Source of the DNA: Flavobacteriales bacterium
GTDB taxonomy: Bacteria; Bacteroidota; Bacteroidia; UBA10329
Assembly (NCBI GenBank): GCA_021739625.1
Contig: JAIPBJ010000029.1
Location: 1 to 34,882, forward strand
Direction: 5' to 3'
DNA length: 34,882 nucleotides
Part shown: piece by piece, positions 20,083 to 33,931 of the stretch
Layout of the letters: each line of letters starts with the position of its first letter
How positions within the stretch are numbered: position 1 is the first letter of the stretch
Notes under the pieces: generated by a model
Seen by the model: the letters and a program-made list of their open reading frames with translations, nothing else
Databases searched by the model: none
What the model was told of the DNA's origin: nothing
Translations under genes and position numbers: made by a program

Positions 20083-20086
20083 TTTT

Positions 20087-20121
20087 CAATTATCAATTAA
20101 CAATGAGCAATTATCAATTTA
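20087..20121. repeat. CAATNNN heptamer array, left arm of S23 cassette 1
   Basis: Five perfect-length heptamers: CAATTAT, CAATTAA, CAATGAG, CAATTAT, CAATTTA. They begin 5 bp upstream of the ATPase start codon. The inverted partner is at 20504-20538. Confidence 0.85.
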
Positions 20122-20140: not shown

Positions 20141-20500
20141 TCATTCCTCTGGCCTATTGGTGGTTCTGATTATGGAGAAGAGAATTCTGAGAATTTCCTC
20201 ACAATCGTTGACCAAATCATCGTATTCATTCTTGGTGATGTATTCTGTGGCATGAAGAAGGCGCAACCAGAATTTCGATTCCCGTGCTTCCTTGTATGAG
20301 ATGCCTAGTTTGGCGCTAAAATCCTTCCTGGAAATTCCGCCAATGGCCTCCTCAGCATTGGCCCCTATTGAGGTTGCACTTCGCATCAATTGCCGCGTCA
20401 GGTCATATTCTCGATGCTCAATTCTTACGCGTTTGCACATCAGCAAGACTTTCACCGCGAAATCAAAACTCTTCGTCAAAATCACATTCTCTGCTGCCAT
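20141..20500 (-). CDS. Four-helix-bundle protein, S23 (23S rRNA intervening-sequence) family
   Basis: 119 residues from ATG 20500 (a GTG lies one codon earlier). The S23 signature is clear: DLTRQLMRSATSIGANAEEA, then ISRKDFSAKLGISYKEARES and FWLRLLHATEYI. The family was named from proteins encoded in intervening sequences of 23S rRNA genes, is also found elsewhere in bacterial genomes, and shares the fold of the Avd protein of diversity-generating retroelements, which binds RNA and reverse transcriptase. Here it sits inside an ABC transporter operon, on the same strand, between inverted CAATNNN arrays. It belongs to a different subgroup from the S23 gene at 23167-23532. Its role is unknown; a selfish or RNA-processing-linked cassette is inferred. 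Confidence 0.85.
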   Translation of the reverse strand: MAAENVILTKSFDFAVKVLLMCKRVRIEHREYDLTRQLMRSATSIGANAEEAIGGISRKDFSAKLGISYKEARESKFWLRLLHATEYITKNEYDDLVNDCEEILRILFSIIRTTNRPEE

Positions 20501-20503
20501 CAC

Positions 20504-20538
20504 GTAATTGTTAATTGCTCATTGATAATTGTTCATTG
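20504..20538. repeat. CAATNNN heptamer array, right arm of S23 cassette 1
   Basis: Read on the minus strand: CAATGAA, CAATTAT, CAATGAG, CAATTAA, CAATTAC, five heptamers. The first word contains the final Gln codon and the TGA stop of the FtsX gene. Aligned with the left arm, 29 of 35 positions match, so the two arms can pair in RNA. Confidence 0.85.
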
Positions 20539-21741: not shown

Positions 21742-21867
21742 CGTTCGCTTTTCGCCATTCGCTTTTCGCAAAAAAGGCAGGGGTTTGATGTCTGTGAATC
21801 TGAACTCATTTGTTTTTCCACTTCTTGTTTTTCAGTTAGCCGAATGGCGAACAGCGAACAGCGAAAG
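21742..21867. repeat. Inverted pair of GCGAANN heptamer arrays between the FtsX genes
   Basis: The left arm (21742-21769) reads on the minus strand as GCGAAAA, GCGAATG, GCGAAAA, GCGAACG. The right arm (about 21839-21867) reads on the plus strand as (G)CCGAATG, GCGAACA, GCGAACA, GCGAAAG. About 70 bp without an ORF separate them. The left arm ends 3 bp from the start codon of one FtsX gene; the right arm ends 6 bp from the stop of the other. Confidence 0.8.
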
Positions 21868-21873
21868 GCTTTC

Positions 21874-23094
21874 TCAACTCCTCATCGCCACAATCGCCTT
21901 CATCCTCAGTAATCTCATCATCGGATATAAGGCTATTACCGAAGTAATGGCCGCTACAACCAACGCCTGCGTGGCAAACACCCCGATATCCACCGTGCTC
22001 TGCATCACGGGTTCCATGCCGTATTCCTCGAACATCTTGGTGAATTCCTCGCCTTCGCCAAAGGTGATGGGGAAATAGTAGAACCAGCTCACCACGGGCA
22101 GGGCGCCTATCATGCCGAGGATGGAGCCGAGCAGGGCCAGCATTACCACTTCGAGCCAGAAGACAGCGGCCAGTCGCCAGCGTTTCATGCCCACCGCCAC
22201 CAGCACCCCGAACTCATGCATCCGTTCGGCAAGCATCATCAGCATGGTGCCGAAAATGCCGAACGAGATGACCATGTAGAGGATGAACATGAACACGTAG
22301 CCCTCTTTGCGGTCAGTCTCGATCATGTGCTTGAGGTCGGGCATCAGCACTTCCCAATCGTGTGCCACGAGGCCGGTAGGAAGTGAACCGCTCAGGTCAC
22401 TGACAATCTTGGTGGAGCGGTCAGAATTGTCCATCAGCACCACTATGTTGGTACACATGCCCTCGGCCCCGAAGAACCATTGCGCCTCCTTCAAAGGCAG
22501 TATCACCAGTTGCTTGCTCAACTCGGGCGACCCGAATTTGACCAGTCCTTTCACAGGATATTTGCCCGTGGCGGTGCTGCCCTGATAGCCCATGCCGATG
22601 AGCACGATGGTGTCGCCCACCGCCAGCCCGAGCTTCTTTGCCAGCCCGGAACCAAGGAGCACAGCCTTGTCATCAGGTTCGAGGTAAGCTCCATCTGAAA
22701 CCCGTGCAGCCATGTCGGTGTGGTCCTTCTCGGCCACTGGGTCAATGCCCACGACCATCGCGCCCTTGGTGGTCTCGTCCGATGCGGCCAGCGCAAAACT
22801 CTCGATGCGTGGCACCCAGCCGGTCACATGGCGCGTGGACATTATGCTGCTGTCAATGCCGTCCGACATCATCAAGGCATCGTCCAATGAGCGGTCGGGG
22901 AGATATTCGGCCGACTGTACCTGAACAAAGCCACTGTAAGCCCCGATCATCGAGTCCATCATGCGGGCATACATTCCTTCCTTCATGCTCATCATCAAGG
23001 TGGAAAGAATCACCGCGAAGAACACCGACATCAGGGTGATGGCCGTTCTGCGCTTATTGCGCCAGATGTTGCGGTATGCGAGACGGAGGAGCAT
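21874..23094 (-). CDS. FtsX/LolE-type ABC transporter permease (second)
   Basis: 406 residues with the same topology as its neighbour: TM1 (about 17-38, TAITLMSVFFAVILSTLMMS), a periplasmic domain (about 40-270), and three C-terminal TM helices carrying RMHEFGVLVAVGMKRW. It opens MLLRLAYRNIWRNKRRT, parallel to MLLKIAWRNIWRNRTRS in the first permease, so the two are diverged duplicates that probably heterodimerise as LolC and LolE do. The start codon (23094) is separated by only one base from the first TCAGGNNN word, leaving no room for a normal ribosome-binding site outside the repeat. Confidence 0.92.
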   Translation of the reverse strand: MLLRLAYRNIWRNKRRTAITLMSVFFAVILSTLMMSMKEGMYARMMDSMIGAYSGFVQVQSAEYLPDRSLDDALMMSDGIDSSIMSTRHVTGWVPRIESFALAASDETTKGAMVVGIDPVAEKDHTDMAARVSDGAYLEPDDKAVLLGSGLAKKLGLAVGDTIVLIGMGYQGSTATGKYPVKGLVKFGSPELSKQLVILPLKEAQWFFGAEGMCTNIVVLMDNSDRSTKIVSDLSGSLPTGLVAHDWEVLMPDLKHMIETDRKEGYVFMFILYMVISFGIFGTMLMMLAERMHEFGVLVAVGMKRWRLAAVFWLEVVMLALLGSILGMIGALPVVSWFYYFPITFGEGEEFTKMFEEYGMEPVMQSTVDIGVFATQALVVAAITSVIALYPMMRLLRMKAIVAMRS

Positions 23095-23095
23095 A

Positions 23096-23174
23096 TCAGG
23101 GTGTCAGGTTTTCAGGTAATCAGGAAACGGGTGAATTGGTTGTCAGGAGGTCAGGTTTTCAGGTGATCACGATG
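23096..23174. repeat. TCAGGNNN octamer array, left arm of S23 cassette 2
   Basis: The first block of four octamers is TCAGGGTG, TCAGGTTT, TCAGGTAA, TCAGGAAA (23096-23127). A 15-bp interruption follows, then TCAGGAGG, TCAGGTTT, TCAGGTGA and the degenerate TCACGATG (23143-23174). The S23 stop codon (TCA on the plus strand, 23167-23169) lies inside the last word. Confidence 0.85.
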
Positions 23175-23532
23175 GAAGGGACTTGGAAAGGTTGGCAATG
23201 AAACGGGCAAGCATTTTCCGTTCTTCATCAAGTTGGGAATTCAGCTTTTCTATGAGATCAGTGGGTACCGAGAAACGCCTTTGGACTATCAGAGCCTGTG
23301 TCTGAAGCTCGAATGTTGAACCAAGTGCTGTTTCCAGATACTGGATAAAGTGCCTGTCACTCTTGCGAGAACAACCCTCCGCGATGTTGCTTGGAATACT
23401 GACACTGCATCGCGCCATCTGTGTTCTTAGTCCAAAGCGTTCTGAATCAGGAAGCAGAGCAATAAGGTCGTACGTTGTTTCGACCACACCCATTCCGCGT
23501 TGCCAAATGGTCAAATCCTTAAAATCTCTCAT
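23167..23532 (-). CDS. Four-helix-bundle protein, S23 family (second, different subgroup)
   Basis: 121 residues: MRDFKDLTIWQRGMGVVETT, then LRTQMARCSVSIPSNIAEG and FIQYLETALGSTFELQTQ. These are the hallmark S23/four-helix-bundle motifs (Q-x-x-R-x-x-S-I-P-x-N-I-A-E-G and L-x-x-A-x-G-S-x-x-E-L). It is only distantly similar to the S23 protein at 20141-20500, so the two are independent insertions rather than a recent duplication. It is encoded on the operon strand between the LolA-like and FtsX genes, enclosed by inverted TCAGGNNN arrays. No catalytic residues are known for the family; RNA-associated behaviour is inferred from the Avd fold. Confidence 0.88.
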   Translation of the reverse strand: MRDFKDLTIWQRGMGVVETTYDLIALLPDSERFGLRTQMARCSVSIPSNIAEGCSRKSDRHFIQYLETALGSTFELQTQALIVQRRFSVPTDLIEKLNSQLDEERKMLARFIANLSKSLPS

Positions 23533-23549
23533 CCTTATGCGTTATTGCT

Positions 23550-23589
23550 AACTCTGATTTCCTGATCACCTGACACCCTGATTTCCTGA
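23550..23589. repeat. TCAGGNNN octamer array, right arm of S23 cassette 2
   Basis: Read on the minus strand: TCAGGAAA, TCAGGGTG, TCAGGTGA, TCAGGAAA, TCAGAGTT, five octamers. It begins 5 bp after the stop of the LolA-like gene and ends 17 bp before the S23 start codon. Shifting by one word, 25 of 32 positions match the first block of the left arm. Confidence 0.85.
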
Positions 23590-23594
23590 CCACC

Positions 23595-24389
23595 TTACTT
23601 CACCGTTTTCATGTTCGATGTACTGAAGAAGGAATCCTCCAGCGGCTTGTCAAACTCGATCGCGGTGATCTCCATCATGGTCTTGTTGCCGGGTTTGTCC
23701 ACAGGGATCATCTCCATTTTGGCAGCCAGTTTCTTGCCGCCCATTTCCTTGATGTCGGAAGAGTTGAGGATGTTGACAAGCGCACCGTCCTCGTCATACA
23801 TCTCGCTGCGGAGCTGGATGAGATCGGCCCTGTCGATGAAGAGGACGATCTTGCCCCAGACCACGGCCGCTTCGGGCTTGGGGTCGAGCTGGATCTTGTA
23901 ACACTTTCGGCCCAAGATTGTGCTGTCGCCCGTTATCTTCTGGGTGTAGTCGTTGAGGGTGGACGATTCGCGCACCAGGTCATCGTTGGTGAAATCGGTG
24001 CCCATCCAGCTCTGCATCATCATGCTGGGCGGCAACTTGATGGTGCGCTCAATGCTGGGCATCCAGTTCCATATCTCCTTGTCGCGCTTGAGGAAGGCAA
24101 CGCCTTTGTCCTTGGCCGGTGCTCTGACCACCGAGAGGCTCATCTTCTCGCCCTTGCTCCAGCTTTTGAGGGTCATTTCGCGGGTCCATTTGGGGCGCAC
24201 GGTGGTGATGGTCATCTCGGTGATGGCCGATTTGGTACCGCGCATCTTCTGGTCGGCCTTTTCGATGATCTCGCGGGCGGTTTGGGCTTGCGCGCCAAGG
24301 GCGATGGCGGAAAGGAGGAGGGTTAGTGCGAGGCGCGATAGAGCTGTTCGCCATTCGCCATTCGCTGTTCGGATTGTGTAAAAAGCCAT
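23595..24389 (-). CDS. LolA-like outer-membrane lipoprotein-sorting protein with repeat-derived N-terminus
   Basis: 264 residues if started at ATG 24389. The mature domain (AREIIEKADQKMRGTKSAIT...) matches the LolA_like 'outer membrane lipoprotein-sorting protein' family: MTLKSWSKGEKMSLSVV, WNWMPSIERTIKLPP, WMGTDFTNDDLVRES and IEFDKPLEDSFF. Such periplasmic proteins carry a lipid or lipoprotein between membranes, fitting the FtsX/ATPase and barrel genes downstream. The signal core (LALTLLLSAIALGAQAQ) is preceded by IRTANGEWRTALSR, which is the translation of a GCGAANN array. No ATG lies between array and signal core, so the array seems to have replaced the original start. An ATG at 24485 would extend the protein through a further array. 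Confidence 0.85.
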   Translation of the reverse strand: MAFYTIRTANGEWRTALSRLALTLLLSAIALGAQAQTAREIIEKADQKMRGTKSAITEMTITTVRPKWTREMTLKSWSKGEKMSLSVVRAPAKDKGVAFLKRDKEIWNWMPSIERTIKLPPSMMMQSWMGTDFTNDDLVRESSTLNDYTQKITGDSTILGRKCYKIQLDPKPEAAVVWGKIVLFIDRADLIQLRSEMYDEDGALVNILNSSDIKEMGGKKLAAKMEMIPVDKPGNKTMMEITAIEFDKPLEDSFFSTSNMKTVK

Positions 24390-24561
24390 TCGCTGTTCGC
24401 CATTCGCTGTTCGGGCAATGGGAGAAGCTATTTGCTGGTCACTGTTTACTGTTTTGAGAAACAGGTTTTTCGGATGGAGATTCATGTTATGGTTGATATG
24501 TGCTCATGTTTTTGATTTGGCGAATGGCGAAAAGCAAATGGCGAATAGCGAATGGCGAACA
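24345..24561. repeat. Inverted GCGAANN arrays with an inner CTGTTTA array, TetR-LolA junction
   Basis: The left arm (24345-24414) holds eight heptamers on the minus strand in two blocks (words such as GCGAACA and GCGAATG), split by 14 bp. The right arm (24520-24561) holds six heptamers on the plus strand: GCGAATG, GCGAAAA, GCAAATG, GCGAATA, GCGAATG, GCGAACA. Between them, CTGGTCA, CTGTTTA, CTGTTTT (24435-24455) forms a second word family. The right arm stops 8 bp short of the TetR stop; the left arm runs into the LolA-like coding region. Confidence 0.8.
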
Positions 24562-31714: not shown

Positions 31715-31722
31715 GCGGGCTA

Positions 31723-31868
31723 TTTGCTGTTCGCTGTTCGCCTTTCGCGTATTCGTACCCAGTAAAGCAAGCTGTGAGCTCCCGATGGTCGGTTCGTAAT
31801 TATTGCGTTCCGCAATGAGAGGCAGTTTGTAGCCGCCCTCAATCGCCAATCGTTAATCGATAATCGTT
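31723..31868. repeat. Heptamer arrays GCGAANN and AATCGNN flanking a mini-hairpin
   Basis: The first array (31723-31748) on the minus strand is GCGAAAG, GCGAACA, GCGAACA plus a degenerate unit. The second (31841-31868) is AATCGCC, AATCGTT, AATCGAT, AATCGTT. Between them lies a copy of the CTCAYTGC-N5-GCARTAA mini-hairpin (31800-31819, minus strand). Together they fill most of the 173-bp spacer. Confidence 0.65.
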
Positions 31869-31887
31869 CTTCGCAAATCCTTCCCCC

Positions 31888-33541: not shown

Positions 33542-33800
33542 CTCACTGCTTTTCGCAGTAACCGACCAACGGGAGCTCACTGCCAACGGCAGTAATCGAG
33601 AACCATGGCACCGACCCTTCTCCCGCTCCCCACCTTGTCTCCGTCCCTCGTGTCTCTATCGTCCCTGAGTTTATTCTGAGCTGTCCTCCTGAGCGAACCG
33701 ATCCGCCATAGACGGAGAGCTCATTGCGGAACGCAGTAAGTCGAAGGGCGAACAGCGAACAGCGAACCGACCGAAGCGAGCTCATTGCCTTCTGCAATAA
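33542..33800. repeat. Four copies of a CTCAYTGC-N5-GCARTAA mini-hairpin
   Basis: Copies at 33542-33561, 33576-33595, 33720-33739 and 33781-33800, each with an 8-5-7 layout and conserved arms around a variable 5-base loop (ttttc, caacg, ggaac, cttct). A fifth copy in inverse orientation is at 31800-31819. Several are embedded in GAGCGAA/TCGAAGG-like flanks. Confidence 0.75.
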
Positions 33801-33872
33801 TCTCAAGCAGAGCAATGCAAGCTGTCGATGGCGAAAGGCGAACAGCGAATGGCGAAAGGCGAACAGCGAACA
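33741..33872. repeat. GCGAANN heptamer arrays upstream of the TPR gene
   Basis: The first block (33741-33768) is TCGAAGG, GCGAACA, GCGAACA, GCGAACC. The second (33831-33872) is GCGAAAG, GCGAACA, GCGAATG, GCGAAAG, GCGAACA, GCGAACA. Both are in the same orientation. The second block ends 59 bp before the TPR start codon and occupies the likely -33 region of its promoter. Confidence 0.8.
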
Positions 33873-33931
33873 GCTCATCCCCCAACATTTTTTACCTTCA
33901 TCCCACATTACAGCAACGAACCCTCCTTGCC

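Follow-up and report, generated by a model that had tools for sequence, protein, structure and literature searches.

Inverted arrays of short words flank S23 genes that look like mobile cassettes in bacterial operons

We analyzed a 34,882-nucleotide stretch of DNA (the window; contig C32) from a Flavobacteriales bacterium whose genome (G000) comprises 3.69 Mb across 179 contigs. Its minus strand carries an operon encoding, in order, a TetR protein, a LolA-like protein, an S23 protein, two FtsX proteins, a second S23 protein and a LolD-like ATPase. Our subject is the S23 gene between the LolA-like and FtsX genes, which together with the arrays of short repeated words on its two sides we call cassette 2; the other S23 gene of the operon belongs to cassette 1. 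The parts of cassette 2 and its two neighbors, numbered from the first letter of the window, are as follows.

21874–23094, minus strand: FtsX/LolC-E-like permease gene directly downstream of cassette 2, its start codon abutting the array (profile and neighborhood)
23096–23127, written on the plus strand: downstream arm, block 1, four TCAGGNNN octamers (sequence)
23128–23142, no strand: 15-bp break in the array (sequence)
23143–23174, plus strand: downstream arm, block 2, three TCAGGNNN octamers and one degenerate word with the S23 stop codon (sequence)
23167–23532, minus strand: S23 (four-helix bundle) gene of cassette 2 (locus L040), 121 aa, PF05635, with a predicted model that matches 2gsc
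23550–23589, minus strand: upstream arm, four TCAGGNNN octamers and one degenerate word, inverted relative to 23096–23174 (sequence)
23595–24485, minus strand: LolA-like gene directly upstream of cassette 2, its stop adjoining the array (profile and neighborhood)

Read on the plus strand, block 1 consists of TCAGGGTG TCAGGTTT TCAGGTAA TCAGGAAA and block 2 of TCAGGAGG TCAGGTTT TCAGGTGA (23143–23166), followed by the degenerate word TCACGATG, which begins at 23167 and whose first three bases are the S23 stop codon. The right arm, read on the minus strand, is TCAGGAAA TCAGGGTG TCAGGTGA TCAGGAAA and then the degenerate TCAGAGTT. Period 8 was detected in both flanks with p = 0.005 each, the floor of 200 dinucleotide shuffles. 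An earlier note, made from the letters alone, had described here a second, unrelated S23 gene within inverted octamers, with a left arm of 4+4 words broken by 15 bp, a right arm of five words, a stop codon inside a word, and a word and period unlike those of cassette 1. The gene was confirmed: its protein scores 104.5 bits against PF05635 (cut-off 33.8) and 101.6 against TIGR02436 (cut-off 24), and PF05635 was the sole match in a Pfam profile search that found no transposase domain of the HUH/Y1 type. The break, the right arm and the stop codon are also as described, and the left arm comes close, with four words in one block and three good plus one degenerate in the other. The TCAGGNNN octamers do differ from the words of cassette 1, which are CAATNNN/ATTGNNN heptamers. 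"Unrelated" went too far, however: the two S23 proteins belong to different subgroups, yet both pass PF05635 at 14% mutual identity in alignment, which makes them distant members of one family.

The nearest known kind of element is the S23-encoding intervening sequence (IVS) of 23S rRNA. Like an IVS, cassette 2 holds an S23 (PF05635) open reading frame (ORF) between inverted repeats that can pair into a stem, and would be transcribed with its host transcript. Unlike IVSs, which lie in rRNA helices, it sits in a protein operon at the LolA-like/FtsX joint, its arms are word arrays, and the words vary by subgroup; it therefore departs from that kind in its location. An Rfam scan found no rRNA in the window and none in 20 S23 loci, and no relative of the window protein S23a was found in a phage collection. 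The S23p-encoding IVS of Coxiella burnetii is called selfish or mobile, carries tandem heptamers (GACAGAT) immediately before the S23p start and is cut by RNase III at the first heptamer (PMC4990558).

Matching sites with and without a cassette were available both in related genomes and on plasmids. In G007, whose FtsX protein is 83% identical, the LolA-like stop lies directly at the FtsX start with no cassette between them, and no S23 gene was found in this genome (76% complete); the same joint has no gap in G003 and one of 16 bp in G001. In the sister genome G004 this operon carries three S23 cassettes, a PDDEXK_3 gene and a DUF559 gene. Among Picosynechococcus plasmids, an S23 gene lies between cas10 and cmr3 in PCC 7003 and none is present in PCC 7002. 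On Nostoc plasmids, S23 follows the TraM gene in C052 and N. edaphicum and is missing from C057 and UHCC 0926, and the cassette on pNsp_a of Nostoc ATCC 53789 is lacking in three relatives. Comparison of occupied and empty sites places the arrays as the outermost parts of the extra DNA. Judged by these sequence comparisons, an S23 gene and its two inverted word arrays are either all there or all missing where sites otherwise match, and together they have the look of a single mobile element.

We then asked how common arrays are beside S23 genes. The survey covered 209 distinct S23 genes taken from three sources: the genus, sampled genomes of the class, and named genomes belonging to several phyla. 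Of these, 203 were usable (six had short or N-rich flanks); most are strong matches, being top-ranked in the class sample, among the best 80 of 527 in a further search, or genus finds. Flank periodicity was tested against dinucleotide shuffles. Arrays at p ≤ 0.01 were present in 207 of 406 S23 flanks compared to 26 of 239 control flanks, which come from the same loci and may therefore include some arrays that lack an S23 gene. By locus, 111 of 203 had such an array upstream, 96 downstream and 59 in both flanks. A lack of inverted arrays at most S23 genes would have counted against the idea of the earlier note, but 148 of the 203 have such an array in one flank or the other. Within the genus, 36 of 38 loci show periodicity at p ≤ 0.05 or a high paired-arm score (below). 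All 13 plasmid loci tested have one or both arms periodic at p ≤ 0.05 (11 from Cyanobacteria, one from Gemmatimonadota and one from Riemerella); these are 13 of 22 plasmid records, the other nine being near duplicates, partial matches and two unlisted. S23 itself is present in 157 of 198 sampled genomes of the class.

The arms follow a common plan. Significant arms have period 7 in 184 of 207 cases and period 8 in 20 (204 together), and arrays most often hold four or five words (155 of 259 by lag scan: 87 with four, 68 with five). The two arms of a locus share their word, with a median similarity of 0.87 compared to 0.39 for other loci, and the paired-arm score exceeded the 95th percentile of 812 mispairings at 144 of 203 loci. 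An inverted arrangement fits better than a direct one at 77 of 84 loci; at the other seven, direct is better or equal, and the arms of Pseudanabaena L380 look direct, a minority form. In the window genome all six S23 genes have word arrays with a different word at each (TAAGNNN, TCAGGNNN, GTTCAAN, CAATTAN, GGGACGA and CGAATNN), and two of them (L005 and L006) have three arrays instead of two by eye.

The earlier note also proposed that each S23 subgroup may have its own word, and the tabulation it suggested bears this out. Among the 150 genes that have an arm of period 7, words become more alike as S23 identity increases (Mantel rho 0.238, with none of 500 permutations as high). We scored two loci as having the same word when similarity exceeded 0.7, and excluded pairs with any common neighbor gene. 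The same word was then found in 83 of 128 pairs at 60% S23 identity or above (1 of 2 at 80% or above, 82 of 126 at 60–80%), in 275 of 917 at 50–60%, in 240 of 3414 at 40–50%, and in 163 of 6037 below 40% (106 of 3984 at 30–40%, 57 of 2053 below 30%). The G004 S23 protein closest to that of the window (62.5%) likewise comes with octamers, TTAGGNNN, at a different joint of the same operon, and a TTRGCYN-type word marks one 33-gene cluster drawn from Flavobacteriia, Saprospiraceae, KSB1, Calditrichota and other records. Cyanobacterial L388 (from Nostoc) and L391 and Bacteroidota L074 and L111 form a common S23 subgroup (56–61% identity) with a TCAGAAG-type word. Loci that are closest by S23 often have words of one kind, whether in different phyla, as for L388 and L074/L111, or inside one phylum, as for Riemerella L390 and L003 of the window genome (GTTCAA). 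Calothrix L389 and Picosynechococcus L392, whose words are unlike those of their nearest S23 relatives, count against such tracking. We also considered whether period 8 strictly marks a subgroup and did not adopt this view: 6 of 15 nearest neighbors share the period compared to a permutation mean of 1.31 and maximum of 9 (2000 permutations), which is suggestive only. The alignment (A1) leaves out L154, which contains a stop codon, and L205.

These data speak to the notion that the arrays are generic slippage-prone repeats beside which S23 merely rides, agreement in word type being due to common descent of neighboring DNA. Arrays without S23, the 26 positive control flanks and a mismatch in word order between arms, which fits local turnover, would all be expected under it. 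At S23 identities of 0.6–0.8, however, fourfold-site identity has fallen to 0.36 (baseline 0.31) while word-core identity stands at 0.86 (baseline 0.57), so that with fourfold sites near saturation the kept cores are not accounted for by neutral DNA inherited from a shared ancestor. The word is also common to both arms, tracking persists without shared neighbors, and two genomes in which no S23 was found have few or no arrays (no period-7/8 segments in 400 kb of G088; five in 140 kb of G006, including one inverted octamer pair). This account is already disfavored, and we consider it highly improbable. The sequence comparisons show instead that the word evolves with the S23 protein and that selection holds its core, and they support the view that each S23 subgroup has its own word.

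The fold of the protein offers a hint as to what it might do. The cassette 2 protein was modeled as a four-helix bundle (pLDDT 95.6) with a TM-score of 0.90 to 2gsc, and a Xanthomonas S23 protein is reported to be a pentamer (PMC4990558). The same fold is found in Avd of diversity-generating retroelements (DGRs), with a TM-score of 0.77 to 4dwl and up to 0.78 among Avd entries, and the model also matches the DGR ribonucleoprotein entries 8ube and 8ub7. One could thus imagine a retroelement in which Avd-like S23 works with a reverse transcriptase that copies cassette RNA into sites downstream of genes, and the sense orientation of the cassettes (below) would suit it. The identity to Avd is 13–17%. 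A search for RVT_1, however, gave no match in the window genome (96% complete) and matches in only two of nine genomes of the genus, with DGR template and variable repeats outside the search scope. We rejected a reverse transcriptase as the S23 partner on this ground and consider a retroelement highly improbable.

A role at the RNA level deserves more weight. S23 could be an RNA-binding regulator: bound to the array in the mRNA of the operon, it would compete with the arm hairpin and tune expression of its own and the next gene, and the cassette would spread by ordinary horizontal transfer and recombination only. The upstream neighbor lies on the S23 strand in 190 of 196 cases compared to 138 of 178 control adjacent pairs (p = 6e-9), and where both neighbors were called, 124 arrangements were tandem in the same sense, 31 convergent, three tandem in the opposite sense and two divergent; a cassette therefore either relies on upstream read-through or tolerates nothing else. 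Cassettes occur inside tight operons, where they take up the space that separates a stop codon from the following gene, and downstream arrays begin a median of 7 nt past the S23 stop. Together with the Avd-like fold and the pairing of the window cassette's arms in predicted RNA, these features would fit a regulator. The inverted downstream arm, however, gives a transcript that carries the complement of the word, and one arm would suffice for a simple RNA site; moreover, the operons that receive cassettes are unrelated, and every case examined closely had empty sites. We regard such a regulator as unlikely. The AG strand bias of the upstream arm is not above that of its flank, and that of the downstream arm opposes its flank (80:31 versus 36:78).

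The explanation we favor, and consider rather probable, is that of an IVS-like mobile cassette in ordinary operons whose S23 protein recognizes its own end words. Cassette 2 would be one member of a large class of such small elements. Each comprises an S23 (PF05635) gene and, outermost, two inverted arrays in which a 7- or 8-nt word is repeated about four to five times, and it would need no promoter of its own because it would be transcribed together with the host operon. The four-helix bundle would be the specific reader of the word, marking the ends of the element, as DNA or as a transcript stem, for mobilization or processing. Inversion of the second arm would let both DNA ends be read, or would give the transcript a stem with a 5' arm that S23 could bind instead; the paired arms could give an RNA stem-loop resembling the S23-encoding 23S rRNA IVSs that RNase III cuts out. 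More speculatively, each subunit of a pentamer might hold one word, which the prevalence of four to five words makes attractive. In working principle, with no homology claimed, this resembles the trp RNA-binding attenuation protein (TRAP), a ring-shaped protein that binds short RNA words set at regular intervals. Repetitive extragenic palindromes and their associated tyrosine transposases (REP/RAYT; IS200/IS605-like) likewise combine short inverted repeats with a partner that recognizes them, an HUH/Y1-type transposase encoded between the repeats; cassette 2 differs in lacking any transposase domain.

Several observations weigh against this picture. The cassette replaces spacer DNA in two of the three plasmid site sets (the third is nearly clean), and no clear target-site duplication was found in the three. 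S23 copies within a genome are never more than 66% identical (22 genomes), giving no sign of recent copying. Sixteen of 203 loci have no array by either test (p ≤ 0.05 or paired-arm score). Word order is not common to both arms (six of 72 loci at p ≤ 0.05; Kolmogorov-Smirnov p = 0.36), and we dropped it as proof of a selected hairpin. The predicted RNA fold of the window cassette beats those of shuffles by a moderate margin only (z = −2.49, equaled by 2 of 100). We also looked for specificity residues and rejected them: N114 of the window protein recurs, but column scores were uncorrelated between disjoint sets (rho 0.07). Finally, the same architecture occurs with an unrelated nuclease, so S23 is not the sole possible cargo.

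That nuclease belongs to the GxxExxY family (PF13366), sampled as 50 genes in 51 loci. Paired inverted short-word arms were present at 36 of 50 genes, and the upstream neighbor was on the same strand in 44 of 46, as for S23. The protein is unrelated and the words differ (CACAGAG, CGCAAAG and ACGCAGAT; period 8–10; two to three words); PF13366 genes occur in the G004 operon as well. The argument of the earlier note that array and S23 gene may form a functional unit is supported, within limits set by the GxxExxY arrays and by arrays without S23.

Such orphan arrays are numerous in the window genome: the contigs sampled, mostly short and possibly repeat-rich, gave 25 orphan heptamer arrays in 189 kb, 18 of which match the word of a resident S23 gene compared to a mean of 7.2 and a maximum of 17 for 300 random word sets. 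G004 has three orphans in 340 kb with one resident match, and we therefore do not take the match as a general rule. At the Nostoc TraM site, pNsp_c of ATCC 53789 carries S23-less inverted GGGAAC arrays (L400:1024–1285) with the same left border as the cassettes of its relatives, which indicates that orphan arrays can derive from cassettes, or the reverse. Separately, two minimal hairpins (L243:2502–2570 and L249:4510–4613) have inverted word arrays only 12 and 17 bp apart, the second in a genome with no S23 found.

Heptamer arrays have been reported before. Cyanobacterial short tandemly repeated repetitive (STRR) heptamers are intergenic 7-bp tandem repeats with hairpins, their function called unknown and S23 absent from the accessible part of the description (PMC2670836); S23 genes on cyanobacterial plasmids carry such arrays. 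TAACTGA arrays lie between genes in Beggiatoaceae, cyanobacteria and Bacteroidetes; unlike ours they use a single fixed word, mostly direct and near start codons, and the available text does not contain the term S23 (PMC4679880). Our literature search, confined to listings and a few papers and mostly without subscription journals, found no paper tying S23 to word arrays outside rRNA or to subgroup-specific words. This small protein is very widespread in the class, and the cited sources describe it as of unknown function. If the word is its binding site, that function becomes directly testable with short oligonucleotides, nature supplies many protein-word pairs from which to learn a recognition code, the rRNA IVSs gain a family of relatives outside rRNA, and heptamer repeats of open origin are offered a source. 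Our broadest proposal, which we advance tentatively and hold somewhat doubtful, is that S23 proteins are modular short-word readers with a learnable protein-to-word code, whose pentameric rings on about five of their own 7–8-nt words would define the ends of pan-bacterial operon-inserting cassettes. The rRNA IVSs would then be one special case, orphan heptamer arrays including many cyanobacterial STRRs would be debris, and the unrelated GxxExxY family would have reached the same architecture with other words.

Other inserts and neighborhoods were seen in passing. The operon of the sister genome contains an inserted PDDEXK_3 (GxxExxY) gene with inverted CGAATTA arrays (L055:10226–10618) and an inserted DUF559 gene adjoining CCCCCTTT/AAAGGGGG palindromes (L055:11424–11771). 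At the same joint in two more sister genomes, L056:3959–4062 and the L057 spacer upstream of FtsX hold CCCCCTTTGGGGG-type palindromic inserts, possibly DUF559-linked repeats. The S23 cassettes L392 (cas10/cmr3) and L380 (cas6/cas4) lie within clusters of CRISPR genes on plasmids of cyanobacteria. A pair of near-identical S23 copies from two Calothrix plasmids was considered as a cassette move and set aside because longer gene neighborhoods are also shared. The remaining arrays and S23 gene of the window operon are listed here.

20083–20119, plus strand: cassette 1 downstream arm, CAATNNN heptamers (array scan)
20141–20503, minus strand: cassette 1 S23 gene, in the same operon but from a different subgroup (PF05635, 87.5 bits)
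20505–20538, minus strand: cassette 1 upstream arm, inverted CAATNNN heptamers (array scan)
21744–21865, no strand: S23-less inverted GCGAANN heptamer pair between the two FtsX genes (21744–21769 / 21841–21865; array scan)
24347–24559, no strand: inverted GCGAANN arrays without S23, around the start of the LolA-like gene (24347–24371 and 24389–24413 / 24518–24559; array scan)

Further S23-less arrays of the GCGAANN type lie at 31719–31873 and 33742–33874 of the window; some GCGAANN arrays are inverted pairs, and this orphan word is similar to that of the resident S23 gene L006. At L234:136–1190, GGGACGA, CAAATTG and GCGAA arrays are stacked around a small ORF, as if from nested insertions.
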